A DNA stretch of 64,000 bases, from NCBI GenBank assembly GCA_947625755.1, contig CANQPJ010000001.1, positions 209,330-273,329 on the forward strand, in the 5' to 3' direction. Position 1 is the stretch's first letter, and every line of letters starts with the position of its first letter. The translations under genes and the position numbers were made by a program. Below the pieces are notes generated by a model, which ran no database searches, was not told where the DNA came from, and saw nothing but the letters and a program-made list of their open reading frames with translations. Below, piece after piece: positions 1 through 9,269 of this stretch. The stretch comes from an uncultured Lachnospiraceae bacterium (lineage in GTDB: Bacteria > Bacillota > Clostridia > Lachnospirales > Lachnospiraceae).

Positions 1-180
1 CTGATCATAGAGAGAACCTACCCGAACCATATAGAATTCATCCAGATTACTGGAAAATATGTTTGCAAAAGACAGACGCTCACATAACGGTGTATTCTTA
101 TCTCCTGCCAACTGCAAAACCCTTTTATTAAATTTCAGCCAGGACAACTCCCTGTTATCATAACATTTACTAACTTTCAC
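1..180 (-). CDS. ppk: Polyphosphate kinase, N-terminal part (runs off the left window edge)
   Basis: Minus-strand translation from a GTG at 180: [72 protein letters not shown] and ERL.F..I.SSNLDEF.MVRVG are PPK1 N-terminal signatures; GGAAGGTAGG lies upstream. Absent from the supplied ORF track. Confidence 0.9.
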
Positions 181-185
181 CTATC

Positions 186-1259
186 CTACCTTCCCAAACA
201 TATATCAAGCATTTCCGCCTGATTTAATATCTCATCCTCCGTATCTATAATTTTTTTCTTTCCCGCAATATCCTTTAACAAACATTTATTAATTTTTCCA
301 TTTTGAATTGCCATCATATATCCAAACTGTTTTTTACAAATTAACTTTGCAGCCTCTACTCCCAGTCTGGATGCAAGAATCCGGTCATAAGCGCTGGGAT
401 TTCCTCCTCTTTGAATATGTCCAATAACAGATGTTCTGACTTCTGCATCCATCTGGTCCTTTAATTGTTTTTCCAGATTTTGTGCCGAATCTGATATTTC
501 TTCTTTCTGTCGTTTTTCTATAAAAGCCTTTTTTGATAATTTATTCTCTTCCAAAGTCAGTATTCCTTCAGCAGCTGCAACAATAATTCCTCTTTTTCCC
601 TGACTAAACTTTTTGTTGATATGGTCTTTCACTTTTTTTATGTCGTATGGTATTTCCGGTATTAAAATCACATCCGCTCCTGTTGCTATTCCTGCGTTAA
701 TAGTAAGCCAGCCCGCTTTGTTCCCCATAACCTCAACAATAAAAATCCGATTATGGGACACAGCAGTGGACTTTAAATTATCCATATATTCTGTTGCTCT
801 GTCTATCGCTGATGAGAACCCAAAAGTCATATCTGTTCCAAAAATATCATTGTCAATAGTTTTTGGCAGCGTAATGATATGAAGTCCTTTTTCACTTAAA
901 AGATTCGCTGTTTTATGGGAACCGTTACCTCCTAAAATAACAAGACAATCTAACCCCATCCCTTTATAATTTTCTACCATACACCCGACTTTTGTTTTTC
1001 CATTTTTATATTCATCATTTATTTTTTTAAAAGGCTGTCTGGAAGAGCCAAGAATGGTTCCGCCCTGCTTTAAGATATATTCGAAATCGGAAAGATTCAT
1101 TTTGGCAGAATTTCCTTCAATTAATCCTGTATAACCGTCTTTAATTCCATATATTTCCACCTTATTTTTCGACTTTTTATACAATCCTTTTACCAGACCA
1201 TACATTGCCGCATTGAGAGCCTGACAGTCGCCGCCACTGGTTAAAATGCCTATTTTCAT
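186..1259 (-). CDS. 6-phosphofructokinase family protein
   Basis: MKIGILTSGGDCQALNA, GGNGS, PKTIDND and IQRGGNPSAYDR motifs. Confidence 0.92.
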   Translation of the reverse strand: MKIGILTSGGDCQALNAAMYGLVKGLYKKSKNKVEIYGIKDGYTGLIEGNSAKMNLSDFEYILKQGGTILGSSRQPFKKINDEYKNGKTKVGCMVENYKGMGLDCLVILGGNGSHKTANLLSEKGLHIITLPKTIDNDIFGTDMTFGFSSAIDRATEYMDNLKSTAVSHNRIFIVEVMGNKAGWLTINAGIATGADVILIPEIPYDIKKVKDHINKKFSQGKRGIIVAAAEGILTLEENKLSKKAFIEKRQKEEISDSAQNLEKQLKDQMDAEVRTSVIGHIQRGGNPSAYDRILASRLGVEAAKLICKKQFGYMMAIQNGKINKCLLKDIAGKKKIIDTEDEILNQAEMLDICLGR

Positions 1260-1381
1260 TTTATTTCTCCTTATAAATTTTTTAGAAAATATTTTAATTC
1301 CTTTTTATTATTTCCATCTAAAGAAAATTTATAAGGTTAATATAAAATCTAATATACAATTTATCTTAAAAAAAATATTAT

Positions 1382-3115
1382 TTATACTTCTGTCATTTTG
1401 TACAAATCATAATAAATTCCATGTTTTTCCATTAGTTGTGCGTGTGTTCCCTCTTCTTCGATTCCTCTGTCTGTAAGAACAAGAATTCTTTCCGCATTTC
1501 GAATCGTTGATAATCTGTGCGCAATAACCAATGTCGTTCTGTTTTTCGCCAGTTTTTCCATGGATTCCTGTACAATTTTTTCGCTTTCATTATCCAGTGC
1601 TGATGTAGCTTCATCAAAAATTAAAATCGGTGGATTTTTCAAAAAAACTCTTGCGATAGATAATCTTTGTTTCTGTCCACCGGACAGCTTTATTCCCCGC
1701 TGTCCAATATCTGTATCAAATCCATTGGGAAGCTCCATAATAAAATTATATGCGTTGGCTTCCTTTGCCGCCTTGATTACTTCATCTCTGGTTGCATCAG
1801 GTCTTCCATATTTAATATTGTCATAAATGGTACCGGCAAAAAGATATACATCCTGTTGTACCATGCCGATATTATCACGAAGCGATTTCAACTTAACATC
1901 CCGAATATCCTGCCCGTCAATTAATATTTTTCCACCGGATACCTCATAAAATCTTGGAATCAAATTGCATAAAGTAGTTTTTCCTGCTCCGGAAGAGCCG
2001 ACCAATGCAATGTATGAGCCTGCATGGATACTCAAATAAATATGCTTTAACACTCTATGCGCATTGTCATGATAACGAAAAGAGACATCTTCGAATACAA
2101 TGTTTCCTTTTACTTTTCCTATATCTCTTGCATTTTCTTTATCTTTTATTTCGGGTTTTAACATAAGAATCTGTCGAAACCTTTCATATCCGGAATATCC
2201 GTTCTGAAACTGTTCTGTAAAATCAATTAATGTCTTCACCGGTTCAGTAAAAATATTAATATATAATAGAAATGTCAGTAAATCAGTAATATTAACCATA
2301 TTTTTTGTAATCATGACTCCACCCGAAATGATTACAATCAGATTAATCATTGTAGTAAATGCCGTCAGTCCTGAATGATACCCACCCATATATTTATAAC
2401 TGTTCTTTTTGGCAGACAAAAACCCATCATTTCCAATTTTAAATTTCTGATTTTCTATTTCCTCATTGGCAAATGATTTTACTACGCGGATGCCTGAAAG
2501 ATTGTCTTCTATCTGCTCATTGATTTCTGCAATTTTCACCCGGTTCATTCGAAATGCACGCTTCATCTTTTTGTTAAAAAAATAAGCATACAATATCATA
2601 ACGGGTATCAAAACAAACGCTGCAACAGCTAATTTCACATTAATGCTTAAAAGAATTGCCAACGCACCGATAATTTTAATAAAAGAGATTGTCAAATTTT
2701 CCGGGCCATGATGTAATAATTCCGTTATGTCAAACAAATCAGAAGTAATTCTGGACATTAACTGTCCCACTTTCTGGTCATCAAAAAACGAAAACGGCAT
2801 TTTCTGAAAATGGGAAAATATCTCTGCTCTCATGTCATATTCCATTTTCGCTCCCATTACATGCCCATAATATGAGATATAGTAATTGCAATAACACTGT
2901 ACTAAAATAAGGGTGGCAACAATAACAGCAATAACCATCAGACTCTCTATGGCACTCTCCTTATCCATATATATTACGGTAGAAGTTACATATCTGACCA
3001 CCAAAGGAATCACTAATGCAATGGCTGATGCCATAATGGCAAAAAACATATCGGCAAAAAAGACTCCTTTATAGGGTTTGTAATAACTTATCATCTTTTT
3101 TAGATTTTCTTTCAT
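1382..3115 (-). CDS. ABC transporter, fused permease and ATP-binding protein
   Basis: N-terminal TM domain; Walker A GSSGAGKTT, LSGGQKQRLSIARVFLKNP, FDEATSALD. ATG at 3115 preferred over the GTG at 3124. Confidence 0.93.
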   Translation of the reverse strand: MKENLKKMISYYKPYKGVFFADMFFAIMASAIALVIPLVVRYVTSTVIYMDKESAIESLMVIAVIVATLILVQCYCNYYISYYGHVMGAKMEYDMRAEIFSHFQKMPFSFFDDQKVGQLMSRITSDLFDITELLHHGPENLTISFIKIIGALAILLSINVKLAVAAFVLIPVMILYAYFFNKKMKRAFRMNRVKIAEINEQIEDNLSGIRVVKSFANEEIENQKFKIGNDGFLSAKKNSYKYMGGYHSGLTAFTTMINLIVIISGGVMITKNMVNITDLLTFLLYINIFTEPVKTLIDFTEQFQNGYSGYERFRQILMLKPEIKDKENARDIGKVKGNIVFEDVSFRYHDNAHRVLKHIYLSIHAGSYIALVGSSGAGKTTLCNLIPRFYEVSGGKILIDGQDIRDVKLKSLRDNIGMVQQDVYLFAGTIYDNIKYGRPDATRDEVIKAAKEANAYNFIMELPNGFDTDIGQRGIKLSGGQKQRLSIARVFLKNPPILIFDEATSALDNESEKIVQESMEKLAKNRTTLVIAHRLSTIRNAERILVLTDRGIEEEGTHAQLMEKHGIYYDLYKMTEV

Positions 3116-3167
3116 ATTATACACCTGTCTCCATTTTCATAAAAAACTTATCTCTGATTTTGAATGA

Positions 3168-4545: not shown

Positions 4546-5445
4546 TTAATATAATAATGCTCTATTTATATTAACTTTTCCCCAGCCCTGCCGATTTCGG
4601 TCCATTTTCAAATCATCTGCCGTCTCTTTTAAGATTTTTTTACATTCTACATTAGACAAATAACTGTTTTGAGACAGCATAAGGCAAACTGCGCCTGTAA
4701 CAATGGGAGTTGCCATAGACGTTCCACTTTTTGCAACATAAAAATATTTCTTTTGCCACAGATTGCAGCAACTGAAAATACCATTGGCAGGTGCAACAAT
4801 ATCCGGTTTTAAAATACACTGCTTTGTCGGACCTCTTCCGGAATAATGAAAAGTAATCTTTCCGTTTACAATCATTTTAAAATTGTCGTTATCCGCACCA
4901 ACTGTAATAATTTTTTTGCAGTCCCCGGGGGTAGATATGGAGCTGGGTCCCGGTCCGTTATTTCCGGCTGCCGCCACCACAACATACCCCATGTCCCAGA
5001 GCAGTTCCACTTCATCGAGCAATCTTTTATTTTCCTTTTTATTATTTCCCAACGTTCCAAAAGAAATATTTACTATTCTGACTCCATACTCTTTTCCATG
5101 GTCGACAATCCAGTGCATTCCCTCTATTACATCATTCTCTCTTCCCATTCCTTTTTCATTTAACACTTTCAGGGAAATGATTTGCGCCCCCGGCGCCACT
5201 CCTTTCATTAATTGATTCGACATTCTCCCACTTCCACAGATAATTCCTGCCACATGAGTTCCATGACCTTCATCATCATAAGGATATGTCCTGCCATGAA
5301 TAAAATCCTTAAAATAAACAATTTTATTATTTAAATCCGGATGACTGCTTACTCCACTGTCCAAAACTGCGACCACAGTTCCTTCTCCGGTAATTCCTCT
5401 TGCGTGTATTCTGTCTATTCCCAAATCTGCTCTTACCTTTCGCAT
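4546..5445 (-). CDS. Subtilisin-family (S8) serine peptidase without a signal peptide
   Basis: Catalytic triad motifs VAVLDSGVSSHPD, GHGTHVAGI, SGTSMATPIV; N-terminus MRKVRADLGIDRIHARG is not a signal sequence. Confidence 0.93.
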   Translation of the reverse strand: MRKVRADLGIDRIHARGITGEGTVVAVLDSGVSSHPDLNNKIVYFKDFIHGRTYPYDDEGHGTHVAGIICGSGRMSNQLMKGVAPGAQIISLKVLNEKGMGRENDVIEGMHWIVDHGKEYGVRIVNISFGTLGNNKKENKRLLDEVELLWDMGYVVVAAAGNNGPGPSSISTPGDCKKIITVGADNDNFKMIVNGKITFHYSGRGPTKQCILKPDIVAPANGIFSCCNLWQKKYFYVAKSGTSMATPIVTGAVCLMLSQNSYLSNVECKKILKETADDLKMDRNRQGWGKVNINRALLY

Positions 5446-5643
5446 GATTTCCCCCTAATATATAATTGATTCCCTTGTAAAAATCTGTATTTCTTATCAA
5501 AATCCAATCTTTATAAACAAATGATTAATTATTGCTATCACTTTAGTATATGCCTTTATTTATTGCTGTTTAAAATATTTTGTAAACAAGACATGCCATG
5601 TCTCATATTATTTAGTGTAAGTAAAATATTAGGGAGATTAAAC

Positions 5644-5892
5644 ATGAGTGATTTAGCAGCAACAAACTGTGGATGCGGTTGTGAAGGAGGAAACAATAAC
5701 TGTTTATTCCTTATTCTTATTCTTTTATTCTGTGGTGGAAACGGTAATGGTTGTGGAAACAGCGGTTTGTTTGGCGGAAATGATTGTTGTTCAACAATCA
5801 TCTGGTTGTTCATCTTATTAAGCTGCTGTGGCTGTGGAAACGGTTCATCATTCTTTGGTGGAAACGGTAACGGTTGCGGTTGCGGCTGCTAG
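5644..5892 (+). CDS. Small Cys/Gly/Asn-rich protein of unknown function (82 aa)
   Basis: MSDLAATNCGCGCEGGNNNCLFLILILLFCGG...GGNGNGCGCGC; AGGGAGA ribosome-binding site just upstream of the ATG at 5644; resembles proteins often labelled chorion class high-cysteine in Clostridia. Confidence 0.8.
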   Translation: MSDLAATNCGCGCEGGNNNCLFLILILLFCGGNGNGCGNSGLFGGNDCCSTIIWLFILLSCCGCGNGSSFFGGNGNGCGCGC

Positions 5893-6074
5893 TTGATAAC
5901 GCTGATTTTTATGAGTATGACCTGCAATGTCTGCTGACAAATATGTTGTACCGGTATTATGTGAGCAATATTAATTTTTTAATTTTGCTCCTGTGTATTA
6001 GCATTTAAGTTTATTTTTAGGCATAGACTTAATTAACCGCAGATGCATTATTGTTAATGGAGGGTTACAGCCTG

Positions 6075-6524
6075 ATGGACAAAAACCAAATGAAACAAAC
6101 AAAATTTGATTCTATGGTAACTACCCCGACCATGCAGTTGGTTAAGGCTGTAATCCCTTACATTGACAATCCTATCGGAACGTATCTTGGAATGTTCATT
6201 AAATTTATCGAATTACAGAATGCTGCCATGATAAACAGCAATGAAACGATTGCTGCCATGAATGCTGACAAGCATAAGGGAATGGAAAACCTGATGGAAG
6301 ACATTATGGATTTTATGGGAGATGAAACCCGGGAAACTTTTGAAAATATGAAAAGCATGATGGAAATGATGGAATCAATGAATGATATGGATATGAATGA
6401 AGATATGATGAATGCATTTATGGGGTCTGCTTTTAATGGAAATACGAGCAGCCCCTTTGGTGAAAATGATGATATAAATTCATCGCCAATAAACTATGAG
6501 GAAGGATTTAATGAATATGAGTAA
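6075..6524 (+). CDS. Uncharacterised Met/acidic-rich protein
   Basis: MDKNQMKQTKFDSMVTTPTMQLVKAVIPYIDNPIGTYLGMFIKFIELQNA...; GGAGGG ribosome-binding site 10 nt before the ATG at 6075. Confidence 0.75.
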   Translation: MDKNQMKQTKFDSMVTTPTMQLVKAVIPYIDNPIGTYLGMFIKFIELQNAAMINSNETIAAMNADKHKGMENLMEDIMDFMGDETRETFENMKSMMEMMESMNDMDMNEDMMNAFMGSAFNGNTSSPFGENDDINSSPINYEEGFNEYE

Positions 6525-6807
6525 TAATAAATGGATGGATGACCCGGTATTAAATGGGATTTCCAATGAAAAACTTGAAATTTTAACAAAAATAATCGAA
6601 GGTGCAAAAGGTATGGAGCCAAAGCAAATGCTTACATACTTTATTCAGCAGGCAAATATGGCAGGGAAAAAGGGAATTAATTTTTCCAATGCAGAAACAG
6701 ATTTAATTTTAAATGTTTTAAAAGAAAACATGTCGCCGGAAGAAATCAAAAGAATTGATATGATAAGACAAATTGTAAATTCAATATCAAAAAAACGAAC
6801 ACGATAA
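6517..6807 (+). CDS. Uncharacterised small helical protein
   Basis: MSNNKWMDDPVLNGISNEKLEILTKIIEGAKG...; overlaps the stop of the preceding ORF; GAGGAAGG ribosome-binding site; ATG at 6511 also possible. Confidence 0.75.
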   Translation: MSNNKWMDDPVLNGISNEKLEILTKIIEGAKGMEPKQMLTYFIQQANMAGKKGINFSNAETDLILNVLKENMSPEEIKRIDMIRQIVNSISKKRTR

Positions 6808-6813
6808 TAAATA

Positions 6814-6846
6814 AAGTGGGTTCGGAATATTACCTGAACCCACTTC
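6814..6846. terminator. Bidirectional terminator between convergent genes
   Basis: AAGTGGGTTC...GAACCCACTT perfect 10-bp stem. Confidence 0.8.
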
Positions 6847-6854
6847 AATAATAA

Positions 6855-9269
6855 TTATTTCATAACAATATTAATAATTTTTCCAGGTACATATATTTCT
6901 TTCACAATGTTACCTGTTAATTTGTCTGCAATTGCTTCTTTTCCTGCTGTGATGGCATTTTCTTTTGAAACGTCCACAGGTACACGGATAACTCCTTTTG
7001 TCTTTCCATTTATCTGGACAGGAATCTCTATTTCATCATCCTTCATCAGTTCTTTGTCTGCTGTCGGCCATGTATTATTTTCAAATACACTGCCTGCATT
7101 TCCCAGCCTTTCCCAAAGCTCTTCCGCAATATGCGGTGCAAAAGGCGCAAGAAGTGTTGTAAAGACCTGTATTGTTTCTTTATCTACTCCTCCCTCTTTC
7201 TTTGCAATTTCATTGAATTTATTGTTAAATTCCATAAATCCAGAAACAACTGTATTCAGACTAAAGTCCTCCAGACGTCTTGTAATCGTGTCAATCATCT
7301 GATGACGTGTCTTAATCATTTCTTTTGTCGGCTTAATATCTTTTTCAATACTGTCCACCGCCAGTTTCCAGAATTTTGTAATAAACCGGTATACGCCATC
7401 AATTCCACGCTCATCCCATTCAGAATCAAGTTCAGGCGGTCCCACAAACATTTCATATATTCTCAGGGAATCACATCCATAATCTCTTACCAGATCATCC
7501 GGTGAAACAACATTTCCTTTTGACTTACTCATTTTAATACCGTTTTTTCCGGTAATCATTCCCTGATTAAACAGCTTCGTAAATGGTTCTTCAAAATCAA
7601 CCACGCCGATGTCATATAAGAATTTTGTATAAAATCTTGAATAAAGCAAATGAAGTACAGCATGCTCCACACCGCCGATATACATATCAACCGGTAAATT
7701 ATCATGTGCTTTCTGCTTTGAGACAAGTTCCTTATCATTTTTATTGTCCACGTATCTTAAAAAGTACCATGACGAGCCAGCCCACTGCGGCATTGTATTC
7801 GTTTCACGCTTTGCCGGTTTTCCACAACAAGGGCATGTAGTATTTACCCACTCCTCAATTGCCGCCAGCGGTGATTCACCGGTACCTGTAGGCTCATAGG
7901 AATCTACATCCGGCAGCAATAACGGCAACTGGTCTTCCGGTACCGGAACAGGTCCACAGTCCGGACAATGTACAATCGGAATCGGTTCTCCCCAATACCT
8001 TTGTCTTGAAAATACCCAATCACGTAGCTTGTAGTTAACCGTAGCCTTACCAAATCCCTTTTTTTCAATGATATGTGGAGCCTCTTTTTTAAGAACTGCT
8101 GACTCCATGCCATTCCACTCACCGGAATTAATCATCGTTCCTGCAGCCTCTGTGTAGGCTTCCGTCATATTTTCAATTTCTTTTCCATCTTTTGCAATAA
8201 CCTGAATAATAGGAATATCAAATTTCTTTGCAAACTCGAAATCTCTATCATCATGGGCAGGTACACACATGATAGCACCTGTGCCATAATCTGCTAATAC
8301 ATAATCTGATAGCCAGATAGGTACTTTTGCTCCATTTAACGGATTTATGGCATAGCTGCCTGTAAATACACCCGTCTTTTCCTTTCCCTGCAGTCTGTCT
8401 ACCGACGACTTGTTCGCCGCCATCTTAATATATTCTTCTACTGCATCTTTCTGTTCCGGCGTAGCCAGACTTTTTGCCATGGCATGTTCCGGGGCAAGCA
8501 CCATAAAAGTAGCTCCGTAAAGTGTATCCGGTCTGGTTGTGTAAACAGTAATTGCATTATCCGTATTTTCCACTTTAAAATCGACTTCTGCACCATAGGA
8601 CTTGCCAATCCAGTCTGTCTGCATCTTCTTTACTTTTTCAGGCCAGTCTAACTTATCCAAATCCGACAGTAGTCTTTCCGCATACGCAGTGATTTTTAAC
8701 ATCCATTGTTTTAAATTTTTCTTTGTAACTTCAGCGCCGCATCTTTCACAGCAGCCGTTTACAACTTCCTCATTTGCAAGACCTGTCTTACAGGAAGGGC
8801 ACCAGTTAATCGGCATCTCTTTCTGATAAGCAAGACCTTTTTTAAACATTTGAACAAAAATCCATTGGGTCCATTTATAGTAATCAGGATCTGTTGTATT
8901 CACTTCCATATCCCAATCATAAAGTGCAGAAATTTCATTAATCTGTCTCTTGATATTTTTAACATTCTCTGCAGTAGAAATAGATGGATGCGTCTTCATT
9001 TTAATAGCATAATTTTCTGCCGGAAGACCAAATGCATCCCAGCCCATCGGATGAATTATGTGATAACCGTGAAGCATCTTATATCTGCTCCAAACATCAC
9101 TGATTACATATCCTCTCCAATGTCCTACATGCAGTCCGGAACCGGATGGATAAGGAAACATATCCAGACAGTAATATTTTGGTTTTGACTTGTCAGCGTT
9201 AATAGGATTTATGTCCCAGTTATGACGCCATTTTTTTTCAATTTCCTTATGATTATAAGGTATTGCCAT
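6855..9269 (-). CDS. leuS: Leucyl-tRNA synthetase
   Basis: MFPYPSGSGLHVGHWRGYVISDV, KMSKSKGNVVSPDD. Confidence 0.98.
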   Translation of the reverse strand: MAIPYNHKEIEKKWRHNWDINPINADKSKPKYYCLDMFPYPSGSGLHVGHWRGYVISDVWSRYKMLHGYHIIHPMGWDAFGLPAENYAIKMKTHPSISTAENVKNIKRQINEISALYDWDMEVNTTDPDYYKWTQWIFVQMFKKGLAYQKEMPINWCPSCKTGLANEEVVNGCCERCGAEVTKKNLKQWMLKITAYAERLLSDLDKLDWPEKVKKMQTDWIGKSYGAEVDFKVENTDNAITVYTTRPDTLYGATFMVLAPEHAMAKSLATPEQKDAVEEYIKMAANKSSVDRLQGKEKTGVFTGSYAINPLNGAKVPIWLSDYVLADYGTGAIMCVPAHDDRDFEFAKKFDIPIIQVIAKDGKEIENMTEAYTEAAGTMINSGEWNGMESAVLKKEAPHIIEKKGFGKATVNYKLRDWVFSRQRYWGEPIPIVHCPDCGPVPVPEDQLPLLLPDVDSYEPTGTGESPLAAIEEWVNTTCPCCGKPAKRETNTMPQWAGSSWYFLRYVDNKNDKELVSKQKAHDNLPVDMYIGGVEHAVLHLLYSRFYTKFLYDIGVVDFEEPFTKLFNQGMITGKNGIKMSKSKGNVVSPDDLVRDYGCDSLRIYEMFVGPPELDSEWDERGIDGVYRFITKFWKLAVDSIEKDIKPTKEMIKTRHQMIDTITRRLEDFSLNTVVSGFMEFNNKFNEIAKKEGGVDKETIQVFTTLLAPFAPHIAEELWERLGNAGSVFENNTWPTADKELMKDDEIEIPVQINGKTKGVIRVPVDVSKENAITAGKEAIADKLTGNIVKEIYVPGKIINIVMK

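Follow-up and report, generated by a model that had tools for sequence, protein, structure and literature searches.

In this work, a cluster of four genes was characterised in a 64,000-nucleotide stretch of DNA (the window) from an uncultured Lachnospiraceae bacterium. It is probably a mother-cell module of the Lachnospirales that builds part of the outer layers of the spore, either coat or exosporium, in which ORF1 would form a shell, ORF2 and ORF3 would be its partners and a subtilase of family S8 would be the protease. Direct observation covers the genes and how they are linked, the promoter motifs, and a co-occurrence with the sporulation marker SpoIVA (TIGR02836) that is exact at the level of the genus and of the family. 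Many Lachnospiraceae, which are major gut commensals, pass between hosts as spores. By following sporulation exactly within the family, the cluster offers named candidate genes for the Lachnospiraceae spore surface, adds three protein families for which there is no current model, and is a genomic marker that may separate sporulating from asporogenous gut species.

ORF1 (5644-5892, + strand) starts MSDLAATNCGCGC and encodes a Cys/Gly/Asn-rich small protein of 82 aa with two hydrophobic units. It is followed on the same strand by ORF2 (6075-6524), encoding 149 aa with a predicted all-helical structure and a disordered acidic tail, and by ORF3 (6511-6807, 6511 being the best start), encoding 98 aa predicted to form a small helical bundle. 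Shine-Dalgarno-like sequences are present upstream of all three, and the start of ORF3 overlaps the stop of ORF2 by 14 nt, so that the three co-oriented frames, ribosome-binding sites and overlap given in a preliminary description of this DNA were confirmed. Its statement that the strand is opposite to that of nearby genes also held: the neighbouring genes between about 0.2 and 14 kb all lie on the - strand. By comparing relatives, substitutions were found to be most frequent at the third codon position in ORF1, ORF2 and ORF3 (58/38/172 differences at positions 1/2/3 in ORF1), and thus all three behave as translated genes. The terminator said to close the cassette corresponds to a real hairpin at 6814-6845 (12-bp stem, -19.1 kcal/mol, z -6.1). 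It is placed between the convergent ORF3 and leuS genes, with the better T-rich tail on the leuS strand, and hence probably serves both genes as a bidirectional terminator. A further stem-loop between ORF1 and ORF2 (5963-5990, GAGCAA...TTGCTC, z -3.9), partly kept in close relatives, might restrict read-through or lend stability to the ORF1 transcript. The three linked frames of the cassette as first drawn were upheld, but its extent had to be widened, because ORF2-ORF3 have a separate promoter and the divergent S8 gene is a further member, both of which had been omitted.

The occurrence of the cluster follows that of SpoIVA. In counts uncorrected for relatedness, ORF1 and the S8 gene were each found in 12/12 SpoIVA-positive and 0/11 SpoIVA-negative genomes of the genus; ORF3 was found in 13/13 SpoIVA-positive and 0/20 SpoIVA-negative genomes of the family, the sub-threshold SpoIVA matches of G106 and G233 being scored negative; and among 246 genomes of the order, 77 of the 81 with ORF3 were SpoIVA-positive (p 5e-9 without phylogenetic correction). 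The few genomes with a cluster gene and no SpoIVA match are G164, G182, G194 and G231 for ORF3, three of the four being less than 90% complete, and G258 for ORF1. Some SpoIVA-negative genomes of the genus are incomplete MAGs; those at least 90% complete also lack the cluster. The tree of the neighbouring LeuRS of the genus requires about three changes of state, which means more than one loss or gain; as the genus contains a mixture of two LeuRS types, this tree reflects the species poorly, and it was used only for the conclusion of more than one change. Within the family, the trait is distributed over many genera. Taken together, it is very likely that the cluster belongs to sporulation. On the other hand, ORF3 was not detectable in 103 of the 180 SpoIVA-positive genomes of the order. 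With more than half of them lacking it, the cluster is a lineage-specific accessory and not part of core sporulation. The SpoIVA-negative genus members G001, G003, G009, G011, G016, G019, G021 and G022 have assemblies of 1.1-1.9 Mb, versus 1.8-2.9 Mb for most SpoIVA-positive ones, which suggests that sporulation was lost alongside genome shrinkage.

Conserved linkage across relatives, set beforehand as the test of the preliminary description, was found. ORF1 and the S8 gene occur together at this locus in 12 of the 23 genus genomes, and the order ORF1-ORF2-ORF3 is the same wherever the contig and the motif search reach all three. Most sporulating members of other family genera keep this order, usually adjoining leuS. 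In the order's deeper families, the corresponding locus contains the S8 gene, ORF1-like genes (one or two), an additional ORF2-like gene, ORF2, ORF3 and leuS. Two unrelated sporulation units, ORF2-ORF3 and ORF1/S8, might adjoin by chance, and such a reading would explain why ORF2 has its own promoter and why in G249 and G149 ORF1 lies at least 7 kb from ORF2-ORF3, in G249 still adjoining the S8 gene. However, linkage of ORF1 with ORF2-ORF3 was found in all sporulating genomes of the genus (12/12) and in 10/12 other SpoIVA-positive genomes of the family. Other families of the order also have the set, with S8 and ORF1-like genes, and a chance neighbourhood is therefore unlikely.

The promoter motifs point to the mother cell. 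A motif of the form AC-N15/17-CATAnnnT precedes ORF1 in all 23 loci inspected (12/12 of the genus and 11/11 of the family), with the -10 element 37-46 nt before the start codon; a simulated 220-bp region in which base-neighbour frequencies were kept contains it with a probability of 0.044. In the window this putative sigma-K-type promoter lies at 5586-5611 on the + strand and consists of the -35 element AC (5586-5587), a 16-bp spacer and the -10 element CATATTAT (5604-5611). On the S8 side, the same motif was found on the opposite strand in 11/12 genus loci, and in the window it is AC-N15-CATATACT (5545-5569, - strand). Upstream of ORF2, a CATAnnnT -10 element is present in 20/21 loci (11/12 of the genus and 9/9 of the family), but the AC -35 element accompanies it in only 1 of these 20, the others having mostly an ATA/ATT-type -35. 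The corresponding candidate sigma-E-type promoter in the window lies at 6001-6029 on the + strand, with GCATTT (from 6001) as the -35 and CATAGACT (6022-6029) as the -10 element. As a control, the regions upstream of spoIVA in the same 12 genus genomes have an ATA-type -35 element, the AC form occurring in 0/12. In Clostridioides difficile, a -35 of AC marks sigma-K and one of ATA marks sigma-E, while the -10 elements are similar (PMC3789822). Following this rule, the motifs suggest sigma-E for the transcription of ORF2-ORF3 and sigma-K for that of ORF1 and the S8 gene, both sigma factors being those of the mother cell.

The S8 subtilase gene (4546-5445, - strand) encodes 299 aa and is divergent from ORF1. 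Its product matches PF00082 (Peptidase_S8; E 2.4e-53, 181.8 bits versus a cut-off of 21.8), with apparently complete catalytic motifs (Asp29/His61/Ser; DSG, HGTH, GTSM) and no apparent signal peptide, and its best solved relatives are the subtilisin-like serine proteases 3afg and 9ues. The gene is present as a single copy at this locus in exactly the 12 sporulating genus genomes, and within the genus, as well as in two further members of the family and at six order-level loci, it adjoins the trio or lies close to it. Csp subtilases and YabG of clostridial spores are spore-associated mother-cell proteases, as is proposed for the product of the S8 gene; YabG belongs to a protease family other than S8. 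Since Csp-type S8 proteases work in clostridial germination (PMC3789822), the cluster could be a germination cluster in which S8 has a CspB-like action and is carried or regulated by ORF1-ORF3, which would agree with the divergent arrangement of S8 and ORF1 and the sigma-K-type control common to both. Nevertheless, the S8 protein differs from Csp in scoring far under the cut-offs of the NCBIfam models (72.5 versus 1250 bits for CspBA and 57.3 versus 675 bits for CspC), the csp promoter of C. difficile is of sigma-E, and several genera of the family lack S8 next to the trio. A role in germination is accordingly quite unlikely.

ORF1 is probably a structural protein. It contains 26% Gly, 17% Cys (14 Cys in 82 residues) and 13% Asn, with no Lys or Arg and almost without charged residues. 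It is made of two units, each a short hydrophobic run followed by a Cys/Gly/Asn stretch with CGCGC clusters; the runs (LFLILILLF and STIIWLFILLS) are 9-12 residues long, which is short for a membrane span, and no signal peptide was apparent by eye. The proposal of an envelope or spore component, disulphide-crosslinked or self-assembling, with two cytosolic partners agrees in this respect, as well as with the SpoIVA co-occurrence and the sigma-K- and sigma-E-type promoters; its suggestion of metal binding was weakened. A metallothionein-like metal-binding or redox-buffer role in sporulating cells, with two partners, would account for the 14 Cys and the CGCGC clusters, but the deeper-lineage ORF1-like proteins at the same locus have only 0-3 Cys (for example MNDVAAQGFGGNNLMFLILFLLLFNQGG at L107) and yet keep the hydrophobic/Gly pattern, and in part MSDV-type starts. 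These proteins were matched only modestly (E about 6e-5 to 3e-3 in a small search), and their assignment depends in part on position. Together with the long hydrophobic runs and the near lack of charged residues in ORF1, the low Cys numbers make metal binding very unlikely. It was also considered that the cluster might produce a RiPP or a sporulation killing factor, with ORF1 as the precursor, S8 as the leader peptidase and ORF2/ORF3 as helpers, because a small Cys-rich product and a subtilase occur here with a nearby ABC exporter gene (1382-3124). Inspection of the open reading frames in the conserved neighbourhoods revealed no modification enzyme. Moreover, the exporter gene is present at only 4/9 loci of the named relatives (eight genus relatives and one Epulonipiscium MAG) and is separated from the cluster by the housekeeping gene icd, and it was dropped as a member of the module. 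ORF1 is conserved at its N-terminal end (MSDLAATNCG, invariant across the genus) and shows no leader/core split, and it is present in every sporulating genus member, unlike patchy bacteriocins. We therefore consider a RiPP extremely unlikely and retain ORF1 as a candidate shell protein.

In agreement with the preliminary description, none of ORF1-ORF3 was assigned to a known family, since all Pfam and NCBIfam matches are under cut-off, and the searches against Pfam, NCBIfam, PHROGs, PADLOC and PDB sequences gave at most weak low-complexity matches. Phasin_2, SspE, SocA_Panacea, SinI and phrog_10824 were dropped as sub-cut-off, weak or compositional. The structure model of ORF2 is helical with a disordered tail and has low confidence (pLDDT 54), and its family is almost wholly limited to Lachnospirales. 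ORF3 is modelled as a small helical bundle (pLDDT 81), for which a Foldseek comparison with solved structures gave a best E of 2.8 and named no fold. An enriched ORF3 profile searched across the class matched 8/274 genomes, 6 of which belong to its own order. That ORF2 and ORF3 act on ORF1 has, in our estimate, an even chance. A defence or toxin-antitoxin pair was rejected for ORF2/ORF3, as there is no family match and the distribution is not patchy: in PADLOC, ORF2 had only a weak low-complexity match to SspE (E 0.0013) and ORF3 none, and the Pfam match to SocA_Panacea reached 13.5 bits against a cut-off of 25.7. In deeper lineages, S8 is adjoined by an additional family (about 160 aa) that has an LLEAMKPF motif and a weak likeness to ORF2 (L106 2941-3408; L107 5116-5616; L108 7371-7877; L109 4855-5355; L111 4087-4572). 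A sigma-K-type motif precedes it in 4/5 loci; in the window, no such gene was found close to the trio.

Spore shells built from Cys-rich proteins are already known, and the general role proposed here is of this kind. ORF1 resembles CsxA of the Clostridium sporogenes/botulinum exosporium and ExsY/CotY of Bacillus in being a Cys-rich protein of a spore former, which makes it a candidate disulphide-locked shell protein. Unlike them, it has no family match, is only 82 aa long, is Gly/Asn-rich and carries two hydrophobic units, and its self-assembly is putative. To our knowledge, these systems have no counterpart of the partners ORF2, ORF3 and S8. YjcZ-type proteins of Bacillus are tiny and Gly-rich, with one short hydrophobic run, and are made in sporulation; their likeness to ORF1 is a resemblance only, as no ORF1-like protein matches such a Pfam or NCBIfam model. 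Similar clostridial proteins go by the name 'chorion class high-cysteine', under which a literature search yielded only a silk-moth paper; further searches found no title or abstract on the genes of the cluster. CsxA, ExsY and CotY are unrelated Cys-rich proteins that self-assemble into cross-linked shells, a solution that recurs in spore formers without sequence homology (PMC7333573). CdeC and CdeM of C. difficile are Cys-rich exosporium proteins under sigma-K, CdeM having NGNNGGNNNNC-type repeats and 8.7% Cys, and both are reported absent from Lachnospiraceae (PMC6101409). They share with ORF1 the richness in Cys and the sigma-K control, the latter judged for ORF1 by its promoter motif. CdeM differs in its 161 aa, its RREA repeats and the other genes around it.

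From the above, we infer the timing and location of the module, the self-association of ORF1, the role of its partners and the protease substrate. We hypothesize that ORF2 and ORF3, as small helical proteins, would be made first in the mother cell from the sigma-E-type promoter, and that the paired sigma-K-type promoters would then switch on ORF1 and the divergent subtilase. ORF1 would self-associate via its hydrophobic units at the forespore surface and be locked by disulphides, while the helical pair of ORF2 and ORF3 may hold or place it and the S8 subtilase may trim coat proteins. In a bolder reading, the Lachnospirales would have their own way of building the outer layer, in which ORF1 assembles mainly via hydrophobic runs, Cys cross-linking is a later addition in some lineages, a dedicated helical pair places the shell protein, a co-regulated subtilase matures this protein, and the three small families are undescribed; this fuller picture is tentative, and we hold it somewhat doubtful as a whole. 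Judged by the libraries that were searched, the protein families of ORF1-ORF3, their architecture and their near restriction to one order are new.

Some related observations were made around and beyond the cluster. Depending on the species of the genus, the leuS gene next to ORF3 (6855-9269 in the window; L084, L085) encodes one or the other of two LeuRS types, which are about 45% identical. The genus is divided between these types in the LeuRS tree, and the arrangement looks like replacement at one locus. Elsewhere in the class, single-unit relatives of ORF1 with 32-48 aa occur. The class-wide ORF1-like matches are mostly weak and compositionally driven, and their co-occurrence with SpoIVA (34/38 versus 191/274) is only suggestive. 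ORF1 and its ORF1-like relatives have no significant match in Pfam or NCBIfam. Class-wide single-unit proteins of 36-45 aa without a family model take the form ..WIIILIILxCCC..CGCGC, sometimes in tandem (L126, L127, L132, L133, L136-L138 and the centre of L144). Outside the order, G387 (L120, ~148-3067) carries an ORF3-like gene together with an S8 gene whose product is extended at its N-terminus and an ORF2-like gene in divergent orientation.
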